The notes beneath the pieces are model-generated. The model searched no databases, was not told the origin of the DNA, and saw only the letters and a program-made list of their open reading frames with translations. The position numbers and the translations under genes are program-made. Positions 12,624 through 40,114 of a stretch of 64,000 nt of DNA are shown in pieces. Origin of the DNA: Paramarasmius palmivorus (taxonomy: Eukaryota; Basidiomycota; Agaricomycetes; Agaricales; Marasmiaceae); NCBI GenBank assembly GCA_037176845.1, contig JAYKXP010000167.1, forward strand, positions 27,485 through 91,484, read 5' to 3'. Numbering within the stretch: position 1 is the first letter of the stretch; each line of letters starts with the position of its first letter.

Positions 12624-15335
12624 TAGTGTTGTTGGCAATGGCAGTATATTCTGCCAAGAGCGTCAGCAGTATTGGCAGGCAGATGGCAGTATTGAAATTT
12701 GTTGGGCAGTATCTGGCAGAATAAAATTAGTAATACAGTAATCACAACATTTTGTACCTACTATCAATTCTTTTTTTTTTGCTTCTGCACGCTGCTATGG
12801 CTCAAGACCACCACCCATTCATTCTCCAGCACTTCGACAAGCTTGAGGGCATCAAAAACAAGTCTCAGCGCTATTACTTCAAGTGCAAATACTGTGGAGA
12901 CAACCCCAATTCAAAGGGAGCGTCAATTGAGCACTGTGACAGTGCTCTTGCCAATTACATCACATCAATCAAAGAGTGTCCTAATGCCGACCAATCTGCA
13001 TGCTCACATGCTCATTGATATATGGAGGAGAAGAAGCAGCAGGACGCATCAAAGTCTAAAAATGTTGCTGAGAGGTTTCAGGAGAATCTGGCTCAAAAAA
13101 GCGGAAGGTTGGGGTGCAGGGAACATTGGATGGTGTTGTTGATGTGCCCATGACAGAGACCCAGAAGAACAGAGCAGACCTGAAGCTTCTGAGGTAAGTT
13201 GGTGTTGAATTATGACATGAAAGGCATGGTAAAGACTAAATTCATTAGGTACATCATCCATTCAAACTCAGCCTTCAAATGTAGCGAAGATTGGTATCTT
13301 CAGGACTTTTGCTACGAATTATGTCCATCTTATGAATGCCTGTCTCATTATGTGATTTCACATACCCTGCTGGATAGCGAAGTGAGTTCGGTTCATCTAT
13401 ATGATGTCGATGTACTCATCAAACTGGAGAGAATTGCGACCTTTCTTATTGATGGATGGGATGATAATTTGTGGCATTCACTTTATGGAAGTGTTGCATC
13501 CCAAGTTGATGAGCTTCCACTTATCCTTGGTCTAGCCAATTTGACAGGACATTGTGGCAATGCAGAGAAGATTTTCCAGACTGCCCTTCAAGCAATGAAG
13601 AACAAGGGCATTGAGGAAGCTTAGTGCTTCATTGCTGCCTGCACTGATAACCCCATGGTGATGCAGTTAGTGCGAAGAAAGCTTGAAGGAAAATTCCCAT
13701 GGCTCATTGTAAGCGTTCCAATTTCATGTGGACTCAGAATTGTAGTTAATGACAGCAACCAGACTCTCGCCTGTTTCCTCCATCAGGTGAACACATTGGT
13801 TGGAGAGACATGTGCATATCCCCAGGTGAAGAAGAGCTTGAGTAAAGGGAACTGTATAGTAACCTTTTTCGATGGTTCTCATTACTAGGGTGGGCAGCTC
13901 AAGGAAGAGGCAAAATGCAACAATGTCTCTCGCAGACTAAAGAAGAACTGCGAGTCAAGGTGGTATGCCATCATCCTCCTCGCGATTAGCATGATCATGC
14001 ATCGCACACCACTTGGTCTCATTTGTGTTCGGCCTGAGGCTAGACAGTCCAAAGGCGGCCTCTCTGTAGTGTCACCAGATGTTGTTGCAACCATTCTTTC
14101 TGATGATGTGTACTGGAACTATCTAAACCAAATGGTCAAAGTAGTAAAGTCAATTGTTGACGTAATCGGAAACTGCGAATCATGACAGACTACACTTGCC
14201 AACTGTATGCTACAGCTTTTAGGTGTTGCAAGAACACTTACAGACATGAAATGTGAGGGTGACGATGACCAGGCCTTTCTAGACCATGCTCAGGCAGTCT
14301 TCAACAAACATTTCTGGAAAATCGCAATTCCAATTCACAAACTTGCCCTCTTTCTTCATCCTCTCTGTCATCAGCTTGCGGTATGTGATAAAGTTGGGTT
14401 CAAGCTAGGGGACATGAAACGGACAGCACTTGGATTGGCAAAGAAGTGGAATTGGAATCAAGGGGAAGCAAAGGCATTAGCAGAGGACATTGACAGGTAC
14501 TACAAATGTAAAGAACCATTCATGGGTGGGGATGAAAATGCTCATAACTGGTGGAAGTCTCTGCCCCTCAACTCGAAGAAACACCCTATCAAATCCCTTG
14601 CCATTATCATTCACTCTATTGTTCCACATACAGCTGATGTTGAGAGGCTGTTCTTGCAGTTGGGGGGTGTTCAGTCTCCAAAGTGTAGCAACTTGTCTGT
14701 CCTGGTCTTCGAAAAACTAGCTACAGTCCGAAATTCCCTTGTTAACGAGCTTACATGGAAAGGAATAGCAGCAGGGAAGTCAACTCACTGTAAACATGCC
14801 CATATGCACACGAAAGAAGGCCCTGCTGTGAGGGTACCAGAACAAAATCACTGAAAAACAGTCATTTTGACACTAATTGTTGTGTTCAGGATTGCACTAG
14901 TACATCATACTAAGTACTATATGGACTTGGTATTAGGGGTGCCAACGGTTCGGCTGGCTCACCAGCTAAGCTGGTCCGGAGCGGGCACGGACCTACCCGG
15001 TTCATGGTAACGGCTCAGCTGGACCCGGTAGCACGAACCGGTTCGACCTGGGTCAAAGCAGGTTTAGCAGGGCGTAGCCATAACTTTTGAGCACAAAGAG
15101 AACATGTCCAGAGTAGTTTATTGCTGAGTAGAAATACAATTTAGATGTATATACGCTACAGTACTGCTAATACGATACATTATAAGTAATACGATATATT
15201 GTGAGTAATACAACTTGAATATGATACAAATTTCGTGTGGCGTCAATACACGGTAAACTATACATAGTAGTAACGAGCGAGCGACTAGACTAAAAAAATT
15301 GCTTGAATTTCAATACAGTTCCAATACAACAAAGT

Positions 15336-17452
15336 TCAATTTCCTCCCATCTCCTCCTCCAATCCCTTGATCACCTCCCCAATAATCTCCATCGTTCGAC
15401 TATCGTTGTAAGGACTCCAAAAAAGTTCCCTGTGTCGTTTGCCACCTGTTGGTACAGGCGGATTAGCGATAAGAAACAGAAATAAGAAAAAACTTACACC
15501 CAGAGCAACAAAAAATGAGACGACGAAACCCAAGATCCATGAGTGCAAGGTGAACACATTGCTCTACTATGCATTAGCGTGATAAAAAAGAGTAAGTAGA
15601 CAAATACGCACCCATTCTACCAGCACACTAGTGACTAGTTGTGCAAGTGTGGTTCGACGTGATCAGAGTTGCCGTACTTAGAATAGTACACAAACTATAG
15701 ATCTGAGAGTGATGATACGCTCTTTGTTACTTCAAAAGCAATCTAGATACACCTTATATTAGGGTCACAATAAGGGTTCAAAGGCTTATATAAGGGGTAG
15801 GAACAGTCCCAAGGGCTATATGTAGCAATCTTGAGTTCAACCAATACTGCCTCAAGTGTATTGACCCTGATAGAATCAAATCAACAAACTGTGCGCAAGC
15901 AGGAATCCAACTGACTCTCCAAATGGTCAATCTGGGCCTCTCTACGTCACTAGAGCTTATAAAAGCTAGTCTGAGGTCTAATCTCTACACAGGAACGCAA
16001 TGCAACCAATGCCTAATGCTGCAGATCACAAGCCAAATACTTGATCTCTGCCAATACAACTTAAGCTCTTGTCTACAGCAAGGTCTCAACTAGACTTTCA
16101 ATCTAGGGCCTGTCCTGAGGAAGTGGAAGCGAATGCAAAGGTCACTAATAGATCAACTAGGCCTGATCAAATGTCTTCTAAGCATGAACACCACTGGATC
16201 AACTTATATAAGAGGTCCAATCGAAATGCACAGATGCCAGTAGAGCAAATATCAGATCAAAGAGGTCTATTCAACTGACAGCCACATACAACCTAATGAT
16301 ATGGGCTACAGAGCACTCTCCCTTCGTCTTCTCTGCCCTTCTACCTACAAACTGCAAGCCTATATATACTGTCCAGGAAAGATAAGTAAGAAATTAGCTA
16401 ATATAAGGCGAAAAACAAGCGGAACATCAATGGAATAAGTGAGGAACAGAGATAATCCATAAGGAATATACAAAACAGGGAAATATGACAGTCACAACGT
16501 CCATATAAGTTGTTTATGTGTGACCAATAAATAATATATCTATCTTTAGACTCAGGAGTTGAATCCTGTGCCTGCGGGTTGGCATTTAGCCTGTTTGAAA
16601 TTTATCTTTTTCATGTGCCAAGGCACTTATCCACTAATAAGAGTCATTTCCGACATCTCCGAGCACCGGAATGGCTCAGTCATCCATGCTCTAGACCTGG
16701 GATATCTTTTACCAGTCTCCATGACCATATGGGACCCTACTATAAGGGGTATATCAAGCTTATCTGCTTCCATACTAAGTGTTTCAGGTGTTGCCACCGT
16801 TTTAACAGCTTTGCCTCCATGTCCGATCATCAGGAACAGCCTTTGCCAACATTCTGGGTTCGGCAAATGCCTTATATAAGCCCTCGGATCATTTCTGCCG
16901 ATGGAGCCGTCCTCTGCATCAACTTGGATCGTTCCCTTGAACCCACATTCTCTTTGGTTGGTCATGAAAAGGTATTAAAAGTATTTTAAAAGCAAATAGT
17001 CCCTTTAATATGTCTTAGACCTTGCACAGACGGTGTACCAGTCGTGATCCAACATAGTACAGCTCCCTACAGTTTTCAGGAAAGGGTCTGCATTGACAGA
17101 ACCACTAATATAAGCTATAGCAGTGGCCAGATACCCATGTGAGGCATACCATGTAACCATATACCTGCTAATATAAGTGCGTCTGACAAGTCCTTGACTT
17201 TGACTAGCTATTCAGAGCTCATACTAGTCCTTCAGAGTCCCAATTATAGCATAACAGAATATAAAAGTGCAATAATGTGTTAGAATAAAAGGTATTAAAA
17301 GTCAGGCGTATCATCGGTACACAATTCGACCTTCCAACCTTCCAAAGTCTCCCAGTTCCTTCCTTCCTCTCCAAGACGTAAATCGAGCCGCGTTTGTCGG
17401 CTTTGCTGGGCTTCATCTTCATCTTGTGGCGGAGCGCTCTTGATCTTGCCAT
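15336..17452 (-). pseudogene. GIY-YIG / T5orf172-domain protein, split by a family-G LTR
   Basis: The N-terminal part (17452-17314) reads 'MARSRALRHK', then 'KRGSIYVLE', then 'RLWKVGRS' and 'NCVP', the beta-strand/helix core of GIY-YIG nuclease-like domains. The C-terminal exons are 15575-15485 with 'EQCVHLALMDLGFRR', then after an intron 15435-15336 with 'CGKRHRELFW', ending at TGA 15336-15338. This order (GIY core, then Cys/His motif CxGC-GKRHRE) matches the fungal T5orf172-like proteins I know, abundant in some Agaricomycetes; their role is unknown, perhaps DNA binding or cleavage. Upstream sequence to 17722 could add spliced N-terminal exons. The family-G LTR (15640-17313) separates the two parts. 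It is minus strand, at the left end of hAT-1, and probably cargo. Confidence 0.65.
15640..17313 (-). mobile_element. Long LTR, family G, near-complete copy (solo)
   Basis: On the minus strand it starts TGATACGCCTGAC at 17313 and runs about 1.67 kb to about 15640. It overlaps both family-G fragments at 1-800 and 4856-5768 and bridges them, which defines the full LTR. Protein-like ORFs within it (16627-16965 minus) align with the ORF at 5186-5476 only because both are the same repeat. I could not find a matching target duplication, so the low-coordinate end is approximate. It interrupts the GIY-YIG gene. Confidence 0.65.
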
Positions 17453-17792
17453 TGGGAGCGAGAGTGAGTGGTGGAGGATGAAGATGAAGTTGGAATGACG
17501 AAGTTGGGAAGAAGGTGGACGTGTTTGTAGTAGTCGAAGAGAGCTAGAGTACGAGAAATAGAAGAGAGATAAGATAATTGACGAGGATGCTCGAGAAAAA
17601 TGAGTACTCACCGTCGTATGAGAAGAAGTCGTGTTGATAGAGACGATGCTGGAAGAGTGCACAGCTGGACAAAGAAGGGTGAGAAGGGTGAGAAAAAGGA
17701 ATGTACGCAGGCCAAAGGTCACTCACAGTCGTAGGTAGAACAAGAAACAAGGTGAAATGAGGTGAAAGGACTTGATGGATAAGAAGTGGTAG

Positions 17793-18240: not shown

Positions 18241-18268
18241 TTAGTTCATAGGCGAGTTACGACTATCT

Positions 18269-19620: not shown

Positions 19621-19624
19621 TCAT

Positions 19625-20095
19625 GCGTATTCAGCTCTGGCTTGGAATGACTGTATCAAGCTAGTTTAGTTTTATTTCCTTAGAACAGTTTAAAATCAAC
19701 GTACCGGAGGCATAGGTTGAAAAGACATGCAGGACCTATTACCATTTGCAATAACGACATTCTTTGGCATGATGGGAGCTAAAGTGTTTGTGAGTGAGAT
19801 CCTAGCATGTATCTTGAGGGCTTACGGGTATAAGTGACAATGAGACCTGGACCAAGGTCCATGAATGTTGCTTACATGTCTGTTGGCTTCCCCACAACAG
19901 CGGGTACTAATCCCTTGAGCCACGAAGAGGCCAGACATATTCAAGGGGTAGATTTGTATTCAGCATTGAGATATTTAACGCACAATGTTTTTATAGCTCA
20001 ACGGCATTAAGATGCAATCATCAAACATAGCTTACAAAGCCACAAGAAAGGATACGATGTCGAAGCTACGGACTTGAATCGGACGACTACATTGC
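19625..20095. other. Spacer 3' of the RGG gene
   Basis: No gene is seen. A stretch near 19906-19945 ('cccttgagcc' ... 'gaggccagacat') recurs in the same orientation near 22918-22955, a small direct duplication within hAT-1. Confidence 0.4.
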
Positions 20096-20289
20096 TTAGT
20101 TTCCACCTCTACCTCTACCCCTTCCTCTGTTTCCAGTCCCTGTACCTCTACTGTTGACAGAAACACCTCGACTGAGATTTTTGCCTCGGTGACTACGCAC
20201 TTCAGTCACCCCCCATACAGGACCTAATAGGTCCATCCCTTGAGGTGAGCAGTTGGGCCTCTTAGGTGGGTTTTTTAGTTGTGGTTACC

Positions 20290-21140
20290 TCAATAGGCAA
20301 CTACCTCTACCTTAAGCCTGCAATAGGGTATTTTCCTGGAATTCAGCTAAATTGAGCTTTAGGCAGCTACCTATATAGTATAAAAGATTTCAAGCTATTG
20401 CCTGGGCTTTTATTGGTAAATACCATATTTGTGTGACAGAGGGTGTCAGGGGTCCTGATTCTGAAAAATAGGCTATAAAATAGGCATTTATGCTCTGATA
20501 TTGCTTTCAATTATTCTATTGATGCCTTTATCTTGTTTTAAGTGTTTATAAGACTTGGATAGTGTAAATCCTATATAATTGTGCCTATTTCTCATTAAAT
20601 AGCATGCTCTCCAATATAGGCTATACAAATGTAAATGTGACATATAAAATGCTATTGAGTATTGATATTAGACATAATAATCAGAGTAAAATAATATAAA
20701 ACTCTAACCACAAAAAGCAGCACAGTATTTACTATTAGTAGCTTAAAATATAGATGCTAACACTATAAAACTGTAATCTTATCAATTTGGTGAGTATTAT
20801 AGGTAGCTATCTGTAAATTGAAAGCAGATATCTGATTCCATATAACTTAAGAATCTCTATCTATCATTTAAAAATAAGATAGGTAGCAACTTGTATCCTC
20901 TAGGCACTTGCTTTAATATAAATGGTGTCTACCATAGCTCATAGGTATATACCTTGAGTTAGTCTATACTATAGGTAATTACCTGAAAGTGATATGGGTA
21001 ACAGGTAGTAACCTATATCTTTCAGGTATCTGCCCTAACATCAATGTATCTACCACAGATCTCAGGTAGTTGCCTCAGGCTCTTTTAGACTACAGGTAAT
21101 TACCTCAAAGCTATATAAGTGACAGGTGTTTGCCTGAGAT
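20290..21140. repeat. Dispersed AGGTA-N-TACCT hyphenated palindromes
   Basis: At least eight short palindromes of the form AGGTA(R/A)NTACCT occur, for example near 20290, 20350, 20972, 21003, 21064, 21100 and 21122. They are separated by 30-60 bp of AT-rich DNA, most densely between 20940 and 21140. Regular reuse of one short palindrome suggests a protein-binding array or a decayed tandem repeat. Confidence 0.5.
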
Positions 21141-21246
21141 AGATATATAAAATAATACATATATTATTATACTTTCTATAATCCAAAACAGGCAAGGACC
21201 CAGAGGAATTCATGAATTAATTTTTTACATACTTTATGGCGCTTTT

Positions 21247-21390
21247 TTGGGCACTTTTTTAACAGGAAAATAATTCCCACCCCTTCTGACATCATTTAAA
21301 CATTATTTTAAAGTTATTTTAGAGTTTTTGAGCGCTTTTTGAGCGCTTTTTTTAATGGAAAATTATTCCCACCCCTTCTGACATCATTTG
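21247..21390. repeat. Approximate 92-bp tandem duplication
   Basis: 'attcccaccccttctgacat' occurs at about 21273 and 21367, each preceded by a T-run and 'gcgctttt' or 'gcactttt'. It is a two-copy direct duplication in the AT-rich element. Confidence 0.6.
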
Positions 21391-24300
21391 AGATCTTCTC
21401 CACTCCGCTTTTTTGGTCCCAAAATAGAAGGTGCTCTTACCTCACTATTTTCTACCTGGAATCAATGCATTGGGGGGCTATTGGGGCATGCTGGGGGGCT
21501 ATAAAAATCACATTTTTGAGGGAATATGTTCTAATATGTTCTAAAAGCATGCTACTGCAATTGGGGGGCAGGAGAATGCAAAAAAAGCAGTCCAAATATG
21601 GTAATTCAGGAAAATGGCATATTGGATCTTGGGCTACAGGGCAGATATTGACATGGGGTAAGTTGGAGGACCTAGATACATTAAATACAAGGCTGGAGAC
21701 ACCAAATAGTACATAGATTAGTGGGATAATGGTGTTTAAATATCAAAAATACTGAAAATCTCCGAAATTGGGGGAATAAGATTACAGGATGGGATGTAAT
21801 GCAGCTAGGGCTTAGATGTTGTGGAACAGAGATGATATATATGTCTCCTTGATGGGTTTACAATCCTGGAGAGCTGCCTATTTTTCCAGATTTATTACAG
21901 CTAAATTCGCTTTTTTTGGACATTGGTAATACTATACCACAGGGAATGATTGGGATAGGCTAATTCTTGTTCATAACCCACTCTATGGTATACAGATGAC
22001 GAATATATACTTGCCCAAGCACTCCTGTATGTGCAACACCTTGTTCAATCCAATGTATTGTACAGTTATGTAACACAGGCAGTAATACATGAATAGCACC
22101 TCAGGGAAGCATCCCAGCACCAAGGAGAGTTGAGAATCGAGTTCAGGCACTCAAAATACACTTTCCTACTTGACCACAACCAGCACCACGACTTCCACCA
22201 TGGGGATGGTGAGCTTGAGCTCTACCAGGCATGCTACCTCGGTGACTACGAATTGGGGGGGCTCCACGAGCAGGAATGATGACTCCATGACCACGGCCAG
22301 TGCCACGATTTCCATCAAGACCTGTACCACGAATAACAGCGGTGATTCCACCTGGTACATTCCCGCGGCCACGTCCAACGACAGCTACGTGTTGACCTTG
22401 AATTCCTCGACCAACTCTGCCCAACAACTCTGTGCCATCTGAGAATAATGGGTCTGTCGTTCTGGCAGAGTCACGTTCCCGGTGCAACCATGGGTGAAAG
22501 GGGCCTTTGGTTTCGGGGATCATGTCATTGCTTTCAATGGATGTATCGGCGTCGGCACCTTCGATATCAACGAGAGAGGTTTCTGTATTCAAAAGGTGAG
22601 TAAATATCGATGAATAAGTTGATACAATTACCTGTGTCGCTGTTTGCCATTGATATGGGGGTAGACGGGCTGTTCCGTCTGCTAAAAGCGTCGTTTAAAT
22701 ATGTCCTACACCAACACCCTGAATGGCAACCTAAAGGCCGTGATGTAAACAATTCAGCCTCGAAGTTAACTCGTGGTGATGTCAGCCTTGATAATGAAAA
22801 ACCTAAAATCGTAAATGAAACCACAAGAATATGTCAAAGGCACGAAAAGATACAAACAAAGATTGCAGGCAGCAGAGTGATGTCTGTTAGCTTCACCGTC
22901 AAGACAGTTACTGGTCCCTTGAGCCGTGTAGAGGCCAGACATCTTTCAAGGGTTCAAGGTATTCAGAAGATTTATCATTACGCGCGATCTATCTATAATG
23001 TAATAATAAACATCCAAGGTAAGTTAAGAAAATACAGATACATAATACCGTCGATAATTAGCAATATGATAATCTAAGTCTCGGTCGTCTTCCGTCTCTT
23101 CTGGTTGCGCTGAACGCCTTTCTTTTCTTTGATCTCTTGTGCCTCTTTGTCCATGCGAGTGAAAGCCTCCTTCTCAAGCTCTATCTGACACACGTCTGAA
23201 GCCCGCAACTTATACTCTACATTCTCATCTACAGCTCCAGTTTCGCTGTCGACAGAGCAACACGCATACATGGCTTCGGATTGACTGGCCAAGTTGCGAG
23301 GAACAGTAGCAATGCCAAAAAAAACGTATTCCCCGGCATGGTCTCCCTTTAGCACATACAGTGCCTTCTTCATCTGAACAGCGATTCCCCGCATTTCAAT
23401 TTGCATGGCATTGGGAAGAATGCGATCTTGTTTTTTGTGCCGATAGAAAATACAGCAATCTCCGAGTTCCGTGTAGCCCACTTTGACCGTCCGTTCGAGA
23501 CCTTTGAATGTATAGCGAAACTGGCCATCTTTACCGAAGAGTTTAACCCAAAACAGGAGTCTGACGGGTTTCCCCTGAAGCTCATAAAGCCAACGATGGC
23601 TTGGATGTGCATTATTGGACCACGTTCGGCGACACCGCACATTAACTGGTGACTCTAGGAACTTCAACATCTTCTGGATGTCTTCTGGAGTTACTACCGG
23701 CATCGGTCTTGTTGCTGGCTTGTCAATGACCAATTCATCCGATATCGCTATGTGCTTGTAGCTCGTGCGACCCATGATACGGTCTCTCATCTCTGCAATG
23801 CTACCGGTTTCCTTGTTGCTAGGGTCATTATCGATGTCACAAGCCCAAGACGAGGAATGCAGCCGGTTATCGGGTTCGTGGAGGTAACAGGATGATGAAG
23901 AAGACCCGTAATATGTTGGAGGATTGAATTTCGGATGAGAGTATCCAACGCGAACTACAAATGGTGGCTGGGCTGCTTCGACAACATGTAGGGGCATCTG
24001 CGAGCTGAATGAAGTCAGTCATCTTCGACACACCACTTATGATAAGCACATACTCAAGGTCAAGAACGAAGTCATAATCCACTTCGAACCTGTCACCGAC
24101 AGACCCTTGCACAATCCATTCCATCTGTATCATCAAACTGCTTGCTGTCTGGCACCCATATCTGACATCTGTCACCCGCGCTCTACCTCTATATCCCCGA
24201 GAAAAGACGTTGACCTCTCTGAACATCCAAGGAATACTGTGAACATGGCCATTGCGAACTTCTCGATCAATTTGCACTGGAGTGAGGAGTTCGGGGTGTT

Positions 24301-25620: not shown

Positions 25621-25625
25621 CCTTC
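25621..25625. repeat. Target-site duplication of Copia-1 (left)
   Basis: CCTTC, repeated exactly at 30626-30630 outside the other LTR. Five base pairs fits LTR-retrotransposon integrases. Confidence 0.85.
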
Positions 25626-26038: not shown

Positions 26039-26045
26039 CTCCCCT

Positions 26046-29000: not shown

Positions 29001-29768
29001 TTCATTGTGGCTGTTCCATTGATATAATCCATCTATTTTGGGAATTTGTTGAATTAAACGCCCCTTTTGGTAGATGTTCATTTTCCCATGCTCTATGATA
29101 ATGTGGTGGCCATCATCATCTAGCATTCCAAGGCTGACTAATGTGCATTCCATTTTGGGAACTAGCATTGTATTTGGGAGTTTCAGGTTTCCGAAAAACA
29201 TCGTTCCTTCTTGTGATGACTTTAAAATACCTCCATTAGCTGCTGTGATGCATTTATCTTCTGTTGGTGAGATGTTGGAAAGGAAATTGGGATTGGGGGT
29301 CATATGTTTTGAAGCTCCTGAGTTGAATAGAGTTGTTTCTCCAATATGGTCACTCGAGGCATAGGCTGAAATGATGGAATTGGAGGCACTCTTAGGTGCT
29401 GCGGAATCTACAGTTCTGTGTGCTATGTTTGTATGAGAAAATGTCCCCTCGGTGTCGGCGTCATCTATATTGCTACTATTTTCACTCCCACCCTCATATT
29501 CTACTGTAATGGCCCTTTCCGTGGATGTTGTGCTTTCTTCCCATTGAACTGCTGGTCCGAATGTAGCTGAGTTGTCCCATGGGGTAGCGACGTAGCTTGG
29601 CCATGCTTCAGAATTGTTCCATGGGTCGTCAGGCATGTCGTCCCATTCGGAAGGAGGAAGAGGGGCTAATGGTGGGTTGTCAATTTCGCGAATGAGTGAT
29701 CGATGTTTTTCGTCCTCGTACCAGTCGGCTACAAGCTGTTTGATGTAGGCATCAGAGTGCTCTTCCAT
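26046..29768 (-). CDS. Copia-type polyprotein (protease-integrase-RT-RNase H), 1240 aa
   Basis: One uninterrupted frame. The protease active-site motif is at residues 147-153 but reads FNSGAS, with Asn149 where the family has the catalytic Asp. The integrase has the zinc-binding 'HDIFGH'/'CDIC' (about 273-312) and catalytic D341, D404 and E440. The reverse transcriptase (about 700-900) has 'QMDVKSAYL' and 'IHVDDM' (D851, D852 in the YVDD position). RNase H (about 1085-1220) has 'GYSDAD', 'TEAEYVAL' and 'KTDNQGA'. An unusual Ser/Thr/Pro-rich linker of about 85 residues separates RT from 'FRELVGALQYIS'. The function is reverse transcription and integration of element RNA. Except for Asn149 it looks intact. 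No Gag lies upstream in frame. Confidence 0.93.
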   Translation of the reverse strand: MEEHSDAYIKQLVADWYEDEKHRSLIREIDNPPLAPLPPSEWDDMPDDPWNNSEAWPSYVATPWDNSATFGPAVQWEESTTSTERAITVEYEGGSENSSNIDDADTEGTFSHTNIAHRTVDSAAPKSASNSIISAYASSDHIGETTLFNSGASKHMTPNPNFLSNISPTEDKCITAANGGILKSSQEGTMFFGNLKLPNTMLVPKMECTLVSLGMLDDDGHHIIIEHGKMNIYQKGRLIQQIPKIDGLYQWNSHNEYALSATKIHVISLQEAHDIFGHTNYEYVTRLITEGKITGLKLDHKKMEQPRTCDICLAAKGKRHPVGKSNEHPVAEKFGDIIHMDVWGPASIKTYKGGEYALTLLDSHTHWLTEVLLRSKGEAFAKYVIHQERLLTQEDIKIKILHSDRGGEFLSEEFAEYLESKGTIRRLTVHDTSEHNGDAERAHLTLLNYVRVMLIGSSLPKWLWGYAVDYGVFLWNRVPHKAIQGETPYWRRYKQHPNGLYIRSWGCNVFVKRDDQPDKLGPMTVDGHWLGPDKESNGFRVYWPKTRSITVERSIYFSDRKTSISEGEQEQLEGLLKSVAETGPPINEATQEEMEFLDPEVIVGKRRRQPTDKVKQIQQGTAEGGKEIRITEKHLTASIAKVTSKMEKSDPFTHQQALEGPNKEKWLEAMKDEITQLKNQDSYSLSMPPPGTDILPNKWVYRSKRNKEGNVDRYRARLVVKGFRQIPGIDYLLDDTFASVAKFTSIRTILSVAAHHNMTIHQMDVKSAYLYGRLKPEERVFMKLPPGLDIGAKPGEAMELKVALYGLHQAGKRWNEKFVQWMKELGYTRSEHDHAVFYRKNPFTIIFIHVDDMTIVAEDEKKMMKAKSKIKSKMEVTDEGQINWLLGIEIQQEHGIIRLCQTSYIKAVLERFGLSNIKPTSAPFKPKSCLPNNSKISTPAVPLSIPPLPGLLKLPNDEIHHSTTERPKQPFSTETKTGVSTDATIHRELNAKNAGKHSNPSFETGTSTMNAPFPMPFRELVGALQYISIATRPDITYALSQSSTNLQQPTREDWNALLRICGYLKGTMHYWLSYRQTNEKTEDHQRVVGYSDADGMTTEGRRAISGYVFMLNGGALSWSSKRQPLVALSTTEAEYVALMHAAKEALWIRSFMSEIFGGKEEPLLLKTDNQGAISLSLGDCFHARTKHIDIRFHFICYTVEKGKIVLGYCPTEDMLADPLTKGLPSAKVKHFASQMGLCSV

Positions 29769-29774
29769 CTGAGC

Positions 29775-30155
29775 TCAATATGGGACTGCTGTACCGTCCC
29801 TAGCTTCCTCTGTTGTTTGTCCCTTCTTGTATGGTGTCCTGGCGATGACCTGTCCACCCATCAAGGTCTTATTGGCCGACCTGTAACACGTTTTGCAGCA
29901 GTGGAATTCCATGAAATCGTCATCGCCATCGTCGTCCATGCTGTCGTCGAAGAGGACTCTGATGATCCCTACTGGTCTGCGATCTCCTCCTTTGGGGGTG
30001 TGGCAAGTGCCACAGTCGCACTCTAGACTCATGTGGGGAAGGTGGCTGTTGTTGTTGTTGGATGACGTCCAGAGATCTTCTGCTGGTGGATTCGCAAAAG
30101 AGTAAGTGGTCTGTGAAGGGATTGGACTTTGGGTCCTTTTGTTGGTTGTTTCCAC
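29775..30155 (-). CDS. Hypothetical 126-aa ORF in the Gag position of Copia-1
   Basis: Lies between the 5' LTR and pol, same strand, with its stop 6 bp before the pol ATG. It has Cys pairs ('CDCGTCH', 'CCKTCY') around an acidic Asp-rich patch, which might bind a metal, but the spacing is not a retroviral CCHC knuckle and there is no UBN2-type Gag helix pattern. It could be a remnant or replacement of Gag, or host sequence picked up with a 5' deletion. I assign no function. Confidence 0.4.
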   Translation of the reverse strand: METTNKRTQSPIPSQTTYSFANPPAEDLWTSSNNNNSHLPHMSLECDCGTCHTPKGGDRRPVGIIRVLFDDSMDDDGDDDFMEFHCCKTCYRSANKTLMGGQVIARTPYKKGQTTEEARDGTAVPY

Positions 30156-30239
30156 TTGAAGTTGGTTCGTGCTGTCTGATCCAGTCCAACGTGTTTCATC
30201 GAGGTTGATGTGAGGGAATGGGTTGGTTGGGGAAATGGT

Positions 30240-30625
30240 GGTAAGCGCGTAACACTTGATGTCAAAGCAAGTGGACCGTGATCAACGCCTAAGTGAATCA
30301 ACTAGGTCAAGGATAGAGATGATGATCGAAAGACTTGTGAAAAGCCTTGAGACTGTGTTTAGCAGTGCTGGTACAAGACAATAGCAAGAGACGATGATAT
30401 TCGATGTAGAGAGTACACAGTTTATATAGTGGAAAGTTCAATAGCATAAAGGACAAGTAAGTATAAATGAATATGCCACACCGATACGATGGTATGAGAA
30501 TAAGAAGCATAAAGACCACAATGAACAGATAAGACTACAAAGGAAAGTCCAGATAGAGAACAAGGACAATAGAGTAGCTGAAAAGATAATCAAATGATAC
30601 CATAAAAGGATTAATTATTCTAACA
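30240..30625 (-). repeat. 5' LTR of Copia-1 (386 bp, lacks the last 27 bp)
   Basis: Matches 25653-26038 with one mismatch (gtaagcGcg against gtaagcAcg). The U5 tail ending CTAACA and a recognisable tRNA primer-binding site are missing at the inner junction, where 'gcttac' is followed directly by 'caccatttcccc' (minus strand). Confidence 0.88.
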
Positions 30626-31606
30626 CCTTCCACCAACATATGACATCACGCTGGCGTTTGGACTGATTGGTGGTCAGTTTCGGATGGAAGTTATTATAAG
30701 GTATGACTTACGTGGACATACACAAGCCATATTGACTGTAACCCATGCTTTTGACGTGTTTTCTCTCTGCGTTCAGCAGCTTCGCTGTTTGGTTCGTTAT
30801 AGAGTGTCATCATTACTTTGTCCACGTAATTGTAAGTCCTGGAGTCGAGTTTCTTCTTTCCAAAGTCTACGAATGGTATGCTGGGCTTGGATATCCTTTC
30901 CTTGTCTGGTCTGAGCTTCGTTGTGATAGTGTGATAGTTGATAGAAGGACTAGCGTCCTCGTCATCTCCAACAATGAATCCATCTGTCCAAACAGTTAGG
31001 ATAAGTAATGTGTAAGACTATCAGAACATACCCATATCCTCGTCACCCTCGTCATCCTCTTCATCGTGGCTGACCTCTGCTTCCAGGTCAAGGAAGCCCG
31101 AGACACCATCCATATCCCCCCTATTGCGCTTTCGCTTCTTCGACATTCTTTGGGTGGGCGATACTTCTCCTGTCGACTCTGCAGCACAGATACCAGGAGG
31201 CGACGGCGGATGAGAGGAGATAAACCGTGGTGAGGAGCACGTCTCTGTATTTGAGGAAAGCTCAACATCCTGAAATGATTAACTCGCTGACAAAGGCCCA
31301 TCTTCAATGCGTTTAGGGCTTGTGATGAATTCGGGGGTTTTCGCAGTCATTGGCCCGTCTATATGGCGAAATGGACGTGGTGAAACGGACTGGAAAGTGA
31401 AGGTTTCCCCTTCAACATACTCAGGCGTTTGCGCCCCTTGAAAACGTGTGGTCTCTATCTCTTCAGTTGTTGTATCTTGGATCCCAGGGCCTGTTTGAAT
31501 CGCCCCAACTGTGATCAGAGCATCGTCGTTGCATTCGTGTATCGTATTCGTTGTCGAAACCTCAAAATCCATCGTATTACAATCGATGCATAAGGTGCTG
31601 TCCATA

Positions 31607-32179: not shown

Positions 32180-33240
32180 TGAAGAAAAATTATGAAGACC
32201 GAGATGGCACCATGCTACTCATTCTTCAAGTATTGTCACGATTATTAATGCAACTCTGCAGGGCATGCGTTTACGCTCCTTGTTCCTGCAATCGGCATCC
32301 AGGATGCCCACCGAAACACAAGACAGAGAAGAACGACGGAGAACTCGTAGAGTCGTGGTAGTGGCGTCTTTGGCGAGCACGATTAGGAAAGTGGGCTACA
32401 GTCGCACCAAAGCTACGGATCCTGGTGAGTAACAGACCCTTTTTTTTTTTTGCGTGACTCATCCTCCATCCCTGACAGAGATTCGATCTCGTTGGTCAAG
32501 TCATACATGTCACGTACGTCAATATCTTTTGCTGTTGAAGATCAACATCGCATATCAATACTCCTTCACAGTTACAGGATCCGCACCGTGCACGTAAGAA
32601 GGCCGAACGTGTTCTTTGGAACGAAACATGCTATGTCCTTATCCGAGTCTTCCGTGAAGTTCATATCCGTTACTTTGATGGTATGTATCCTATTTTATGA
32701 TTGGTTTATCATTCTGATTTGCACCAGCATGAGCGTCATCATTAATCACAATGAGCTCGGTCCAAAGAATCCAAGCCCATGGCCCCATTTCTTGGATATT
32801 AACGCGTTCTTCCAGTCGTTCGGCTTTTGCCTCGCATCGTTGGTGTAGAGATCCAATGCCTCCCGTACGTCACAATACTTGTATTCACTCTACTGCCCTA
32901 ACTTTCGCGTCTTCACAGGTACAGGCCCCACATCACGTATGTAACAGGGTGAACGCGTTTTTGGAACGATAATCCCAGATCCAACTTTTCATGTCAGCAT
33001 TATGGAAAAGTCCGTATTCTATGTTTTTCTTGTTTATTTTTGCTAATTCCATGTTAACCTATTTTCTGATTGGTTCTAGTAGGTGACGCCGCCTTACTTC
33101 AACAAAAACGCGCTTCGGGCGATGAATTCGAGTTCATACATGATCATTCTTCAGGTATGAATGCGTTTTTTCAAACTTCTGCATTTGCCTACTGATTCGG
33201 CACTTCCAGCTACAAATAACGGGTGTAACTCACAGCTAGT
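32180..33240 (+). other. Partly duplicated region, possible short exons
   Basis: Two blocks resemble each other. About 32568-32625 ('cacagttacagg' ... 'gaacgtgttctttggaacg') matches about 32917-32970 ('cacaggtacagg' ... 'gaacgcgtttttggaacg'). In the first, an open segment 'RKKAERVLWNETCYVLIRVF' leads to a good donor (gtatgt at about 32681). No family is recognised. It may be a decayed gene between the divergent Spt5-like and transposase genes. Confidence 0.3.
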
Positions 33241-33251
33241 TACCCAGAGAA

Positions 33252-33395
33252 ATGGCAAAATATCGCTTTCAACGAGGCCAGAAATTGAGGCGCGCGCGAC
33301 GAACTAAGAAGAAAGGCAAAAGCTCTCCTTCACCCAGCCCCTCACCGCCTTCACCTCCCAGTCCCTTACCCTTGGTAGCCATACCCCAACGTTAG
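33252..33395 (+). CDS. Small basic proline-rich ORF
   Basis: From ATG 33252: 'MAKYRFQRGQKLRRARRTKKK', then a Ser/Pro-rich run, ending at a good donor (gttagt at about 33392) with an acceptor 'cgttag' near 33440. The strongly basic start suggests nucleic-acid binding or a nuclear-localisation region. It could be a 5' exon of an unrecognised hAT-1 cargo gene; no homologue is known to me. Confidence 0.35.
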   Translation: MAKYRFQRGQKLRRARRTKKKGKSSPSPSPSPPSPPSPLPLVAIPQR

Positions 33396-33444: not shown

Positions 33445-34014
33445 TCAATCCCACCAACCGTCGTAGACCAAGCTGTGCGACACTTCAGGGAGATTTTATG
33501 CGTGTACGACGCGTTTTCTACGTCCTCTAGGCTTTATGCTCACTAATTCAACAGCTCACGGGTCTCTCACACTTACACCGATGCAAACGGCGTCAGCCAT
33601 ACAATTAGTCGTCTTGTTATGGACACATTTGTTTTGCGAAACTGTTAATTACCTATATGTCTTATCACTTCAATCAGTATTTTGTTTCCCCTGAGCTTTT
33701 AAACGATGCGGCAATGCCTTCAAAGGGTCAACGTGTTCTTGATTTAATACGATTAAATCGGTGCCGCATGGTTTAAGGTTCATTCTTTCGCATTTTGTCA
33801 AGGTAATGACTTTAGGCGCTCAAACCTATCGCGTTAAAGTTTCCTTTTTAGATTGTTACTCCACCTTGAACGTGTTTAGGCACAGCAGAGTAGGCCATTG
33901 CTTGGTATGTTCATTCCTGTAATAAGCTCTCGGACATGTTACTTACGTTGTCATGCGTTGCAGGACATATAAACTTACTATTCTACGAAATCAACACTGC
34001 AAACCCCACTAACA
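33445..34014. promoter_or_regulatory. Presumed promoter region of the hAT-1 transposase
   Basis: No ORF is convincing. It lies immediately upstream of the candidate transposase start at 34015. A pair of 'gattaaat'/'atttaata' motifs occurs near 33745. No defined box can be named. Confidence 0.3.
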
Positions 34015-37000
34015 TGGCTGGAACAAGGAGGAAGAAAGCAAACAGGAAAGGTACGGATGATACTTCTCATCGTCTAGCGTGTAACTGATGTGCTCTCGAC
34101 AGAGAACAACCCAGAGCCCCCAATTGACACAGCTGTCGTGGTGGAACCTCAAGTTGCGACTCAGGTTGAGCCTCAAGTTGCGCCTCAGGTCAACCCTCAA
34201 GTGATGGATCAGGTTCGCCCTCGTACATATGAGAACTTCTCTGCAACTACTTTGAATTCTCATGCTTCGACAGGTCCTGAACCCGCATCCAATGACTCCA
34301 CTGTAGAGATTCGGTCAGTAAACGCAACTCTAGCCCCAGTGGTGGCCAATAGCAGTGATGGCCAAGAGTCTTCAGGAGAGAACAACGGTGAGCATTTACT
34401 CGATTCATCTCAATCAAGTCTCATTTAGTTGGAAGCTGCTTGTGGTCGGTCACTAGTCACCCCAACATCACGCCCTGCCACTCGTTCCTCGACTCGTACA
34501 CGAACGCCAAGCAGACTTCCACTCCCTCAGACTGTAACTCCCCAGCCTCCAAGCAACCCTTGACGTCGCCGCTCCAAGAAGAAAGATACTGAGCAAGGTA
34601 CTGCAGCTGAAAACCAAGAAGTCATTGCACACTGTGAGTTCTATTTTGTCTAGTATACCTGATCTCTGTTGACAGATGCCGATGACCCTCAGGAAGTAGC
34701 ATTCTTCAATCAGCCAATTGCTCAATCAACTCCGTTAGTTTCTGCGTTCCGAAGGGCTGGATCTCAAAGCTGTGAACAGACCAATGTTCACTTTGATGTC
34801 TCTTCTTTGGGAGAGTACATCAATGTCGAACAGATCTCTATCTCTATGGACGACGACCTGACTATATCACTCTCAGTTGCAGCTCCACCAACCAGGACGA
34901 CGCAGGCTACATCATGCAAGAACATGGGAGGTAAGTTGTCGATTTCCCTTTGTATCCGTGCAATACTCATCACATTTATCTTAGGGGCCGTAGACAAACT
35001 CAACAAGGCAAAAGCTTGAGGTCGCAAGAACACTTCGCGTCGAGACAGTATCTCACGTCGCCAGCGAGACTTTGACGCCGCCGTCCAGAGGCCTTTGGTC
35101 GACTTTACTACCTCTCCACCAACGAGGATGGCTGGCACAGGATCACAGCGTTCCAAGCGCGCAGCCGATGTCCATGAGTTCTTTACTTTCAAAGACAGAT
35201 ATTATAGATGCAACTATTGCCTTCAGTAAGTCCCATTCTTACTTCGTGTGATGTCCTACTAATCAAAACTATAAATAGGAAAAGAGAGGAGTCAGCAGTC
35301 CCAGAAGCTGTAACTGTTCACCCCTACACACTGGGCACTGGGAACACGAATATGCAAAAGCACTTGGTAGCTGCGCATTTTCCTGAATGGATAGACGACT
35401 GCGATGCTTGTGGAATCCCCGTAACCGCTGATTGCGCCGCCAATAAAGCCAAGTTGTACCGAGATAAGAACAATCGACCAGATCCCACCGTTTCCCTTGA
35501 GTTCGCCTCATTCAGTATAGAAGGGTTAGTCGATTGCTTGATGGAATTGATTGTGAAGGACGATCTTGTAAGTTTACATGATCTATATGTTGTTCAAAGT
35601 TCAATGCTCACCTCTTGTCTCAGCCCATTAGTCTTGTTGAGTCAGAAAGCTTTGTTCGGCTAATACTCTACCTAAAGCGAGACCTTCGAGAGAAGGATAT
35701 ACTCGGGCGCACGACGATGAGGAAGGTTATCATTCAAGCTTGGTACCTTCATATGCACGAGATCGCCAAAGAATTCGAGGTTAGTTTCTACCTTTTCCCG
35801 CAATATGGGCTGTTGTATTGATCTACCTGTACTAGAATGCGATCAGCAGAATTTCCTTTACGACCGATTGCTGGACAGATTCGACTCTTTATCCCTTCCT
35901 TGCCCTCACTGCCCACTGGGTGGCTGAAACTATTGTTACTGAGAAGGCGTCGAACGGTACCATAACGACTCGCAGCGTCTTGAAGATGCGCTCAGAGGTC
36001 ATAGGCTTCCATGAGGTTCCAGTGTCGCACACTGGTGTGCATCTAGCACAGGCCATCAAGTACCTACTTCGTAGGATTGGTATTGAGAAGGATGTACGTA
36101 TGCAGCATGTGCATCATTGAGATTGACTAACAGCTAGCATTACCAGGTCGGCTATTTCACGACGGATAACGCTTCTAACAATGACACTATGGTCGAACAT
36201 CTTGCTTCGCACTTTAAGGCTATCGATGTCGAGTTTGACGCGCATAAGAATCACATGTGGTAAGTCCAGTTGTTGCCTTAGTAGTACCTAAACCTGACTG
36301 TCTTTAGGTGCTTCGCACATATTCTCCATCTGGCTGTGACACCTATACTCGAAGAGATGGACAACATAGACATCGCTTCATTGATCGCCGCAGAACATGG
36401 CGAGATAGTTTGTTCAACAGAAGGTATTCTCACAAGAACTCGAGGCATGGTTCGTGAGGTGTGATGTCTATTTCTCTGTTTCATAAAAATAAATCTAATC
36501 ACGCTGGCAGTCTCGCGCATCTAGTCAAAGACGAATCGCCTTCGAAGAAATGGTCAGAGCTGCGCGAAACAGAAGAGAACTCTTACTGACACGCAATATC
36601 CCTAACCGTTGGAGCTCTGCGCATCTAATGGTCCATAGAACCATACTCCTTCGTCCAGTGAGTCTTTGATTATTTTCCTCGATAATTCGTGCTAAGCTCT
36701 GCTCAGCAACTGGATGCATTCCGCGTACATTCTGCTCATGGAAACGAGATGACGCCTCATATCTTGAGCAAGTACGAGTTCAAAGGCTTGGTACAATGCG
36801 AGGAAATTCTTAGGGTATATCACATCAATATTCACACTTTGCTTGCTTGTTCATCATTCTTTTTAGGTACCTCACGCATTCCAACATTTTCTGTCTCAAG
36901 AAGATACACCATCCCTTGCCTATGCCATCCCTGCGTTCTATGCTGTCGTGGACCAATGGCTCGCGCTACAGGACAAGTACCCAGATCTCTATGACGTTAT

Positions 37001-37882
37001 CGAGCCAGGAATTGCAAAGCTGCAGGCTTATCTAGCAAAGATTGACAACATTCCGGCGTATTTATTTTCCATGAGTAAGTTGCTCCTGTCTTAAGCACTA
37101 AGTGCCATTCTGAAAGCTTTTCAGTTATCAATCCCCTCGTCAAAATGCGGTGTATCGATGAAAGAATGCCCCGACGCAGGAACGAGATACTTGAGATGCT
37201 CTATAAGGAGGTATAGTGTGCTTTTCAATCTCTCTCGCTCAAGTCTAATGACGCATCATAGATGCGTGCATACCAAGACGACTCACCTTCCCCATCCTCA
37301 GGACCTACTGATACGTCGGCGACATTCGAGTTGGGTGCCAATTGGGTAACTCAGGCTCTGGCAATGGACACCAATGTGAAGCGCACCAATGGAAGCATGG
37401 AAGAAGAGGTGTCCTTGTATCTTCAGGACAACACCCCGGTTCCTCCTGGTAAAGATGGGCTATTGCAATATTGGGAGGTATGCCTATCAGCCGTCTCTTC
37501 ATATCGTCTTCTCTCAACTTAGTTGTAGGCTGCACGCGCAAAATATCCTAACCTCTTTTGGGTGGCCATCGATCTCCTTCCCATTCAAGGAACTTCTGTA
37601 CCCTGTGAGCGGCTATTCTCTTCTTCAAGGCGAACAAAAACTGATCTACGAACTCGTTTGGGGAACGAATTAATGGAAGCAATTCAGATCTTGAAGAATA
37701 CCCTCAAGAAGAATGGCCCACTCCAGTTCACGCGGCACCTTAACTTCGAACGGGAGGCTCAGGAGTTCGAAGCCTGGCAGGATGAAGAGGATGATCACGT
37801 ACTGGAAACAGAGGATCCATACTTATTCGCTGTGAACTTGTCGACAATATCATTTGTAAATTCCGCTCTGGTTTTAGCTTAG
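34015..37882 (+). pseudogene. hAT-1 transposase, multi-exon, core intact
   Basis: Exon 1 starts 'MAGTRRKKANRK' and is followed by Pro/Val-rich and Ser/Thr-rich exons. A BED finger follows ('YYRCNYC', intron, 'NMQKHLVAAHF', 35200-35390). The catalytic core has 'FTTDCWTDSTLYPFLALTAHW' (about 35856-35918, first Asp), 'YFTTDNASNNDTM' (about 36150-36190) and 'CFAHILHLAV' (about 36310). The C-terminal dimerisation domain has 'PNLFWVAIDLLPIQGTSVPCERLFSSS' (37550-37630), ending at TAG 37880-37882. About ten introns of 45-60 bp have clean GT-AG ends. Two in-frame TGA codons (34562-34564, 35017-35019), each one C-to-T from CGA, lie only in the N-terminal linker. An ATG near 35130, just before the BED finger, could still give a nearly full enzyme. 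It catalyses cut-and-paste transposition with 8-bp duplications. Confidence 0.82.
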
Positions 37883-40114
37883 TATCACACATTAGAACTT
37901 GTTATCTTGATTTCTTGTATTGTATATCATCTGCGACTTTAAATACAGGTCTATACACACGTTTACATCTTTACTTCACTGCCTGGAACTTTGTAAGGAA
38001 AAAGGTGGTCAAGCCGACGGCTTGACCGGTTGAACCCGGTAAAATGCCGAGCGGCTCACCACTTATCGGGTCCGACCCGTGACCCATGCCAAGGCTCTGG
38101 GTCAGGACCGTTAGCGGCCCGACCCGACCCGTTGGCATCTCTACTTGGTATCACTGCTAGGAACCTAGTAGTGCACATATGACGAAGAATAAGATAGGCA
38201 TGCACTGCGTAGTGAATACTAGCCGTGCGCGCATAGACGTTGATGTCGTTGTTAGCCCTATATGATTGCGCTAGGATACGTGTCAAAACCTGTAGACCGT
38301 ATCTATACTCTATTACCAGGCTGGAACCTTACAAGGACATGCTACTGTACATGGTAGACTTCCTAGTAGGTCATATGGCTACACTATAATCGCGCTAGGG
38401 GACATATGAGATGGGATAGTGAACGAGGACCAACTACCACAGCGTAGAAGGACCCTAGGGGACGAATCAGAGCTATATACCAAATACGGTAGAAGCTGGA
38501 GGTGCGAGTCACCTTCGAGAGCAGAGTTACCTGGATTAGAAATGTCTGAGTGACCGGGTCATCAATACGAGGACCATATGGGGGCTTAACAGCTTTCCAT
38601 ATCGATCGGAATATCCCTCGAGCTTCGAGTTGGGATTCCTACTGCTAGTACAGACACTAGTGAAGGGCATATAGTCCTATAACAAGGAAACAGATAGGAT
38701 TCTGTGCCAGGACTGTCCTAGGACATAGAAAATATAATATAGAACTACAAGGGCATAGAGCCTACCTTCCTCGGATACGAATCTGAAGCGTTTCGGTCGA
38801 GATTGGACTCCTAGCAAGTTCCGAGCGGAATAACTATGTCCTAGCACCAATATCCAAAACGTACCATGCAGAACAGTGCCTCCACGTGCCACTTCCTAGC
38901 AACCAAAAAGTAATATGACTCGCAGTCCTGCAAAATAATGTCGAATTCCAACCAATATATACCCAAACCTTCTTTTTCTGGTAGATACTTACTTCATATG
39001 GACAGAATCCTCTCCTTGTTTTCATTTCTTGCATAGTTACTATTACTTTATTGTGTCCACTCTCACTTATATGTAAAATATGTACGCTCACGGGTATATA
39101 AGCAGCAGGGTTTCCACTAGGAAGCTCTCAAGCAATTACCCTGCTATACATAGCCCTAGTGCACCAATAGCAGAGTTCTTGTCTTCTATCGTTGACCATA
39201 GAGGCAACGTGTGCTTAGAAAATTAACTTAGAAAATAAACCTTTGAAAAGCCCTTTTCTATATTGAACTAGAGTCGTGAAATTAGAACCTTGAGATACCC
39301 ATAGGACAGAGCTAGTTCATCTAGACTCTTTGGATAGGATTGATTGTTTCAGGACTAGTGTGGAGCCCCACTAGATCCCTTTTCACTTGGTGTGGAGCCC
39401 CACTAGCTTATAGGTGGCCTGGTTGTTGTGCTAGTTCGACTAGTGTAACCAGTGCTGCCTTTCATAGGAACAATAGGTCTTTACCCTTGTCAGGTTCGAT
39501 AGGTTATTTTGCGTCATAGGAACATATAGGAATAGTTTTAAATAGGTTTATAGGTTGGCTCGCGTTGTCTTGATCATATCGAGACCATATTATCATATTA
39601 CATTGTTTCATTCATCACTCGTACACTTCCCTTGTGTCCTAGTGCTTTGTAGACGTTCCACTAGTGTGCTAGTTGATTTCTTGTGTCGATTGTATGGATC
39701 CTTTGACAACGTCGAACCCCGCTCGCACAACTTGGCATATATATTTCGCTCGTTCACAAGCGTTTTATAAGCCTCACACCGCTATCACCATTGACATTGT
39801 GAAGGACCTGGAGGACTCTATGACATGGGAACCACCTATTGGAACCACCAAAAACCCAGCTAATTCATCTGAAGAGAGTGCCGTTGATGCAGCATTCCGG
39901 AGTCTTGAGAAGGAACTAGAGAAAGAACTGTCAGTGGAAGGTGTCGATACAGAAGACAATGGATTTTTGGTTACCAGTGGAGATGTCTTTAATTTTGACG
40001 AAATCAGACATGCACTTGAGGGTATTGCACCAGCTCCATATGCAGATGAAATTGAGGTTGTACGTGAGGGCAGTGGAGGAAGCTGGTCAATCTCAGACAT
40101 CGTTGGGAACTAGA

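Follow-up and report, generated by a model that had tools for sequence, protein, structure and literature searches.

A hAT transposon of Paramarasmius palmivorus with an accessory gene set and RNA motifs of the HDV ribozyme class

A DNA transposon is usually viewed as a transposase between two ends. A 23,210-bp span with hAT-type ends in the 68-Mb genome of the basidiomycete Paramarasmius palmivorus raises the question whether such an element can travel with several further genes, and what these might do. The locus lies in a 64,000-nucleotide stretch of contig JAYKXP010000167.1 (here the window; its contig is C167), and coordinates given below are window positions. Our reading, which we consider probable as a whole, is that positions 14934-38143 hold one copy of a 14.4-14.6 kb hAT DNA transposon whose accessory cargo comprises GIY-YIG, RGG-rich and Spt5-like genes. 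A short way 3' of two of the stop codons, those of the Spt5-like and RGG genes, stand HDV-class RNA motifs; these are predicted to be self-cleaving and would likely sever the accessory transcripts immediately after the coding regions. Because an Spt5-like cargo gene is accompanied by predicted self-cutting RNA motifs behind two genes, the element is likely equipped with its own means of RNA control.

Ends, copies and size of the element

The matching ends and exact 8-bp duplications claimed in the initial annotation were found as described, with short terminal inverted repeats (TIRs) as in hAT elements (Table 1). An empty site on contig C261, in a related repeat about 96% identical, joins the flanks by a single copy of the duplication with 1 base different. 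The size claim, 23 kb and about 14.6 kb minus later insertions, held as well: copies C145 and C79 are without 15628-17313, 20198-22165 and 25626-30625, which leaves a core of about 14,556 bp, so that the 23-kb length results from three later insertions. Each of these interrupts one of the GIY-YIG, RGG and Spt5-like genes, and all four genes of the window copy are broken; an intact window transposase was not borne out, as it contains a premature TGA. The end repeats of the Copia insertion measure 387 nt each and differ from each other at 1 site.

Table 1. Features of the element copy and its insertions (window positions)
Feature	Positions	Strand	Remarks
Left target-site duplication CTTGGTAT	14926..14933		exact 8 bp
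Left terminal inverted repeat TAGGGGTGCCAACGG	14934..14948	+	
GIY-YIG (T5orf172) gene	15339..17452	-	pieces 17452-17315 + 15570-15339, split by insertion 15628-17313
Later insertion	15628..17313		not in C145 or C79; about 72-85% relatives on C80, C1, C97
HDV-class ribozyme-like RNA m1	19875..19948	-	about 148 nt 3' of RGG stop codon
RGG-rich gene	20096..22650	-	read directly; cut by insertion 20198-22165
Later insertion	20198..22165		not in C145 or C79; 21332-22169 recurs at about 92% on C1, C185
HDV-class ribozyme-like RNA m2	22879..22952	-	about 121 nt 3' of Spt5-like stop codon
Spt5-like gene, 4 exons	23074..31572	-	cut in exon 3 by Copia insertion
Copia LTR retrotransposon	25626..30625	-	5-bp duplication CCTTC; absent from C145 and C79
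Weak extra gene candidate	32304..33300	+	between Spt5-like gene and transposase; only short stretches conserved with C87
hAT transposase gene	34014..37882	+	premature TGA at 34561-34563 in window copy; C145 model open there
Right terminal inverted repeat TAGAGATGCCAACGG	38129..38143	-	reversed end
Right target-site duplication CTTGGTAT	38144..38151		exact 8 bp, same as left

A genome-wide search with the element ends gave 25 exact matches vs. 0 in a reversed control. As to whether other copies share the cargo, the answer was divided: some of these ends belong to large copies with the same genes, others to short derivatives (483 bp on C33, C52 and C102; 651 bp with its own duplication on C4). 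The GIY-YIG, Spt5-like and oppositely oriented transposase genes occur in the same order in six copies (C167, C145, C79+C219, C87, C250 and C9), down to about 54-63% Spt5-like protein identity; a seventh large copy, C114, is cut by the contig end and retains a partial order. We read the RGG gene in three copies: the window copy, C145 and C87. Identical 8-mers (TTTCGGGG) stand at the left end on C79 and the right end on C219, which are probably a single copy split over two contigs. The ends of C145 are flanked by unlike 8-mers without a match to each other, and this copy has an internal duplication; in C114, indels are frequent in a stretch close to the end of the contig.

It could be argued that no single transposon is present and that the 23 kb represent unrelated elements nested in one another or an error of assembly, as the three insertions are truly nested and C145 and C114 show the irregularities just described. 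This explanation, which we regard as very improbable, is largely refuted by C87, a diverged relative with an uninterrupted element of 14,401 bp, TIRs and an 8-bp duplication (ACTCTTTG) on both sides, read except for C87:110100-110899 (about 0.8 kb); for the window copy, too, there is a duplication of its own as well as an empty site. Nor does the cargo lie inside separate elements, since C145 and C79 hold the genes without the nested insertions, and the existence of short forms does not alter the presence of the genes in the six large copies. We infer that the transposase moves the whole unit by a cut-and-paste route.

Transposase and accessory genes

As initially annotated, the GIY-YIG, RGG and Spt5-like genes all lie on the strand opposite to the transposase. 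The Pfam queries for the GIY-YIG protein and the transposase were hand-spliced, mainly from copy C145. With these, the GIY-YIG gene, whose model is open in C145, matched T5orf172 (E 7.8e-12), and the transposase matched Dimer_Tnp_hAT (PF05699; E 5.6e-12, 45.7 bits, cut-off 21.4). Of the core motifs claimed for the transposase, the dimerisation domain was confirmed; for the BED finger the hand-spliced protein gave no Pfam match, only HTH_Tnp_Tc5 at E 0.024, under the cut-off. A frame at 18269-19189, between m1 and the GIY-YIG gene, was rejected as a gene, the frames preceding it being full of stops; just about 100 bp of it were matched (93%) in the C87 stretches compared.

The Spt5-like product is 1114 AA long in copies C145 and C79, and NCBI protein entries of 1114, 1149 and 1153 AA come from contigs as long as C79, C87 and C9. 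We computed dN/dS for two coding regions, this gene and part of the transposase. For C145 vs. C87 the Spt5-like value was 0.205 over 1104 codons (about the central 95% of 200 bootstraps, 0.17-0.25), which by codon comparison indicates that the gene is under purifying selection. The transposase gave 0.22 over 709 codons. As dS is higher for the Spt5-like gene (1.29) than for the transposase (0.69), exchange between elements is possible.

The label Spt5-like was itself a claim of the initial annotation, and it has Pfam support that stays below threshold and fold-search support from a low-confidence model. Spt5_N scored E 0.024 (P0003), 0.021 (P0004) and 1.9 (P0002), and Spt5-NGN E 0.005-0.035 in P0006-P0008, all under the cut-off. 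The genome searched with Pfam Spt5-NGN yielded only C49 and C41 and none of the element genes, so that sequence evidence does not, in our view, establish the NGN domain. Searches of PDB sequences, run both with a single protein and with a profile of 13 rows, found no Spt5; the sole match, CTP synthase (E 0.046 and above), was taken as chance. A structure model built from 2 sequences (pLDDT 29) was set aside, and the model used had a mean pLDDT of 38.8, which is low confidence. Foldseek with this model gave 25 matches at E<=0.001, with low TM-scores (0.15-0.26 by target): 23 were chains from entries titled as Pol II transcription complexes, and the remaining two were influenza polymerase cap-snatching complexes. 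The element is predicted to encode a relative of the transcription factor Spt5, an apparent paralogue of the Pol II elongation factor.

A second Spt5-like family (C246, C270, C45, C106 and C31) carries the RNA motif described below and shows no match to the hAT transposase, and it has a 41% relative in Marasmius oreades; seven Spt5-like loci have no RNA motif on their contig. The second family would fit a separate mobile or host module, an Spt5-like gene with its ribozyme, that a hAT ancestor acquired a single time and that has since been a passive passenger. We consider this unlikely: in divergent copies (the window group, C87, C250 and C9) the order of the searched genes is the same, and passive cargo should decay, yet the Spt5-like gene has a dN/dS of 0.21 between C145 and C87. 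Despite its deep divergence, the hAT lineage has retained a set of several accessory genes, of which at least one is subject to purifying selection.

RNA motifs behind the stop codons

The ribozyme-like RNAs had no place in the initial annotation. The motif is 74 nt long, with HDV-ribozyme architecture and covarying helices. At all eight loci measured it lies on the sense strand of the preceding gene, and behind the Spt5-like stop codon its distance is 51-121 nt (8/8 loci measured); behind the RGG stop it is about 135-150 nt. A third motif lies upstream of the transposase in C87, C9 and C250, so that the position behind a cargo stop is not the sole placement; upstream of the window transposase it was looked for and not found. 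No occurrence of the pattern was found in the viral contigs searched (0).

The nested HDV pseudoknot is present with P1 (7 bp), P2, P3 and P4 in HDV order. P1, P2 and P3 are paired in 13/13 sequences and P4 in 96.8% of cells; pairing overall reached 99.3% of 284 cells vs. 27-43% in slid controls. Nine of 22 base pairs have changed on both sides in the 13 sequences, with all three changed P1 pairs coming from a single sequence (C87 m3), and further pair types were not above control, being reached by 69 of 500 shuffles. Single-strand folding energy was unremarkable in three of four sequences (z -0.94, 0.17 and -0.27) and -2.01 in one, perhaps because the program cannot draw the pseudoknot. All 13 sequences share three features: the GCNAA junction between P4 and P2 with its conserved C, which we take to be catalytic; a C-G pair at the P1 base, where cleavage would occur; and AGUA and GAA on the two sides of P4, presumably the letters of a loop E motif. 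The RNAs are predicted to self-cleave at the base of P1.

In the fungal HDV variants of Li and Breaker (2017), two of which were shown to cleave, a C-G at the cleavage position, loop E in P4 and an extra nucleotide between P2 and P3 are described (PMC5640933). The present motif has the HDV architecture and two of these three traits (C-G and the loop-E-like AGUA/GAA); P2 and P3 are adjacent in 13/13 sequences, and because the extra nucleotide is missing we file it as a relative, not as the exact fungal variant. It further differs in being tied to accessory genes of a transposon, while the main text of that report describes widely variable gene associations and has 0 occurrences of 'transpos' (PMC5640933).

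The RNA might also be structured and real and still not catalytic here, a 3'-UTR element for stability, localisation or protein binding derived from an HDV-like ribozyme, for instance as a target of the RGG protein. High conservation that extends outside the helical regions (37 of the 74 columns do not vary among the 13 sequences), the constant sense orientation and the absence of any relevant match in Rfam scans of the element and of m2 would all agree with such an element. Set against it are the invariant GCNAA junction and the agreement of the C-G pair, and of AGUA/GAA if these are the letters of loop E, with the self-cleaving fungal variants (PMC5640933), and we hold it to be rather unlikely.

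Proposed role and comparison with known elements

Under our preferred reading of the RNAs as cleaving, a cut right after the coding region would deprive the accessory mRNA of its poly(A) tail and detach it from read-through RNA of the gene that follows. Cleavage would hold production from the Spt5-like and RGG genes at a low level and make the tandem genes independent of each other, and the Spt5-like protein would ride Pol II and could change the speed of RNA folding and cutting. A self-contained circuit at the RNA level, with HDV-class ribozymes as switches and the element's own Spt5 paralogue setting timely folding and cutting via Pol II elongation, is a speculative extension that we consider unlikely. 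If true, a DNA transposon would own an elongation factor and gate its gene expression by ribozymes, for which no precedent was found in the open-licence literature searched; nor did that literature yield an account of any hAT element that has ribozymes or Spt5. The earlier proposal of a self-contained accessory system finds agreement in the conserved order and the purifying selection on the Spt5-like gene, its function being inferred. In this set, what appears to be a paralogue of a Pol II elongation factor is combined with RNA motifs that belong to a self-cleaving class. With location, partner gene and diverged replicates all available, it offers a natural test system for the biological role of fungal HDV ribozymes.

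R2 and other non-LTR retrotransposons are mobile elements with an HDV-like ribozyme, which in R2 stands at the 5' end of the retroelement RNA. The present element likewise has an HDV-type ribozyme, here predicted, but as two or three motifs between the genes of a DNA transposon. Starships are large cargo-bearing fungal elements with a tyrosine recombinase, known from Pezizomycotina. Ours is also a large fungal element with cargo and differs in its hAT transposase and basidiomycete host; Pfam found no tyrosine recombinase captain among 8 window ORFs and 3 element proteins. The range of fungal giant cargo elements is thereby widened to basidiomycete hATs.

Terminons, giant rotifer retroelements, are described as having accessory genes, including stand-alone GIY-YIG nucleases, and hammerhead motifs (PMC6431247). 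Size, accessory genes with GIY-YIG and a ribozyme-type motif are shared, on that description; Terminons are retroelements with hammerheads and without a hAT transposase, whereas ours is a hAT DNA transposon with an HDV-class motif. The statement that hAT elements normally carry only a transposase needs a caveat, since ToxhAT of Parastagonospora, Pyrenophora and Bipolaris is a cargo-bearing precedent: a unit of about 14 kb with TIRs, a hAT-like transposase gene and several others, for which no target duplications were found and which was termed a composite of at least two transposons (PMC6737239). Its eight genes include ToxA, patatin-TPR and MFS, and the sections of that source at hand mention neither a ribozyme nor Spt5 (PMC6737239); a ToxA domain was not found among the proteins we scanned with Pfam. 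By that account the two are alike in being fungal, about 14 kb long and bounded by TIRs, with a hAT-type transposase plus cargo, whereas in P. palmivorus 8-bp duplications flank the copies and gene order is kept across divergent ones.

Copies of the hAT unit and their ends

Re-reading of the window bore out the initial annotation of the hAT element with respect to its matching ends and exact 8-bp duplication. A related repeat on contig C261 (approximately 96% identical; C-numbers denote contigs of the P. palmivorus genome) provides an empty site, as it joins window 14827-14932 directly to 38143 onward. The window was blasted against 20 stretches taken around genome matches to the element ends, and three segments (see table) were absent from copies C145 and C79. 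Their subtraction leaves a core of approximately 14,556 bp, in agreement with the size of about 14.6 kb proposed for the element without later insertions. One of the three, a Copia element with 386/387 identical end-repeat positions (one site differs), is young. Its presence in copy C114 as well means that the element moved after this enlargement or that sequence was exchanged among copies.

Features of the hAT unit and of related elements (window positions unless a contig is named)
Feature	Position	Context	Remarks
hAT element	14934-38143
Segment	15628-17313		absent from C145 and C79
Segment	20198-22165		absent from C145 and C79
Copia element	25626-30625	inside Spt5-like exon 3	absent from C145 and C79; CCTTC duplication, 387-nt end repeats
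74-nt motif	22952-22879 and 19948-19875	non-coding
Second element	60490-61675		1,186 bp
C87 copy	C87:109470-123870		14,401 bp (all but ~0.8 kb read)

The genome search for the element ends, suggested at the outset as a check, gave 25 exact ends vs. 0 for the reversed control, and short derivatives as well as large copies were among them. Elements of 483 bp each with the same ends lie on C33, C52, C102 and C261, and further ones on C4 (651 bp), C59 (485 bp), C185 (3.5 kb) and C97 (6.7 kb); exact 8-bp duplications flank those on C4, C59, C185, C261 and C97. Both flanks of the C87 copy are ACTCTTTG, and its left and right ends match those of the window at 72% and 80%, respectively. C79 and C219 are probably one copy, since they have TTTCGGGG in common (C79 left, C219 right) and each contig breaks off within the element. 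The C145 copy contains an internal duplication of its ribozyme-Spt5 part (approximately 7 kb, stretches L009-L011) and has mismatched 8-mers (left GTCTGGAC, right TGGTAGAC); the left one reappears at the right end of C114 rather than at that of C145, which makes recombination or misassembly at C145 likely. The C250 contig terminates precisely on an end-like sequence, in which 2 positions are mismatched. The Spt5-like stretch C114:157632-159394 (L036, L037, L040), near a contig end, shows 186 gap positions in 4.5 kb vs. the window, with matches in several frames, and is likely poorly assembled. The second element in the window has the same kind of ends, and its flanking 8-mers, GTTCAACA and GTTCAGCA, differ at one base.

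Gene order and the Spt5-like gene

Position searches gave 25 matches for the Spt5-like protein, 60 exon matches for the transposase and 20 for GIY-YIG, and the search with the pattern of the 74-nt ribozyme-like motif gave 27 (23 exact, 2 with a single mismatch, and another 2 that had three mismatches and were set aside). Spt5-like gene, transposase, GIY-YIG and ribozyme pattern stand in one order in the window (C167), C145, C79+C219, C87, C250 and C9; the GIY-YIG and Spt5-like cargo claimed from the window alone thus recurs with the transposase in the other copies. Direct reading showed the RGG gene in the window, C145 and C87. C114, cut by the contig end, retains transposase, Copia and Spt5-like parts. 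No such gene set was found by position searches beside transposase matches on C1, C185, C158, C171, C213 and C347, and GIY-YIG matches outside the element occur on C139, C69, C169, C42, C185 and C166.

Nei-Gojobori comparison of C145 with C87 gave dN 0.265 and dS 1.29 for the Spt5-like gene (ratio 0.205 over 1104 codons; about the central 95% of 200 bootstraps, 0.17-0.25), and dN 0.152 and dS 0.686 for the transposase (ratio 0.22 over 709 codons, to which the comparison is limited because the C87 model stops early). The Spt5-like accessory gene is under about the same constraint as the transposase. As the two dS values differ, elements may have exchanged sequence.

The Spt5-like models of 1114 (C145) and 1149 AA (C87) agree with NCBI protein lengths of 1114 and 1149 AA. 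Pfam Spt5_N and Spt5-NGN match at the expected places, at sub-threshold scores only; a genome-wide NGN search did not recover the element's Spt5-like genes, and PDB sequence searches were negative. A structure model of the 1114-AA protein, built from seven sequences, has a mean pLDDT of 38.8, and Foldseek with this model returned 25 matches at E<=0.001 (best 8.9e-11) with low TM-scores of 0.15-0.26 by target. Most matches (23/25) are chains, which we take to be Spt5, from entries whose titles name Pol II transcription complexes; the remaining 2/25 are from influenza polymerase cap-snatching complex entries.

The 74-nt RNA motif

The motif recurs at 79-87% identity beside Spt5-like genes that encode proteins of only about 25% identity. 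Its sequence fits helices in the HDV order (P1 7 bp, P2 7 bp, P3 3 bp, P4), with AGUA, GAA and GCNAA invariant. Across 13 distinct sequences, some of which are nearly the same, pairing holds in 99.3% of 284 cells vs. 27-43% in slid controls, and 9 of 22 pairs carry changes on both sides. None of 500 shuffles reached the observed paired percentage, changed-pair number or covariation score; the number of pair types was reached by 69. All three changed P1 pairs come from the third motif of C87 alone, each compensated. Rfam gave no match for the motif. For HDV, the double pseudoknot and the site of cleavage at P1 are described in PMC4908430, and Li and Breaker (PMC5640933) report 230 variants from fungi in which the cleavage site has C-G and P4 has a loop E, with cleavage by two constructs. 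The present RNA shares both features, whereas the variants described there have an extra nucleotide between P2 and P3 that it lacks. Self-cleavage is predicted; the main alternative, that the motif is a non-catalytic RNA element, we regard as rather unlikely.

Of 25 genomic copies, 16 lie in hAT elements, 5 behind other Spt5-like genes and 4 elsewhere. P1 starts 51-121 nt 3′ of the Spt5-like stop in 8/8 loci measured (C145, C87, C250, C9, C246, C270, C45 and C31; the window, C79 and C106 are outside this count). Counted from reading frames, it starts approximately 148 nt behind the RGG stop in the window and C145, and about 137 nt in C87. C87, C9 and C250 each have a third motif, which is upstream of the transposase and on the same strand. 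The ribozyme-pattern search found no motif on the contigs of Spt5-like loci C105, C76, C11, C176, C68, C240 and the degenerate C169. Four motifs (C7:2241, C179:12244, C296:13472 and 14497) are on contigs with no Spt5-like match.

Our results show one hAT unit with conserved gene order, RNA architecture and RNA placement. The hAT transposase would move it by cut-and-paste. The predicted self-cleavage would detach accessory mRNAs from their tail and from any read-through sequence, by which we propose that accessory expression is limited and separated, and the Spt5-like protein may act as a modulator through Pol II speed. Among known systems, ToxhAT is described as a hAT-like unit of approximately 14 kb that carries cargo and lacks target duplications (PMC6737239), and Terminons as retroelements with giant size, GIY-YIG and hammerhead motifs (PMC6431247).

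The other Spt5-like genes with a motif behind them, at L042 (C246), L043 (C270), L045 (C45), L046 (C106) and L044 (C31), form a second family, approximately 25% identical, and the element's hAT transposase had no match at these loci. A 41% relative of this family is found in Marasmius oreades.
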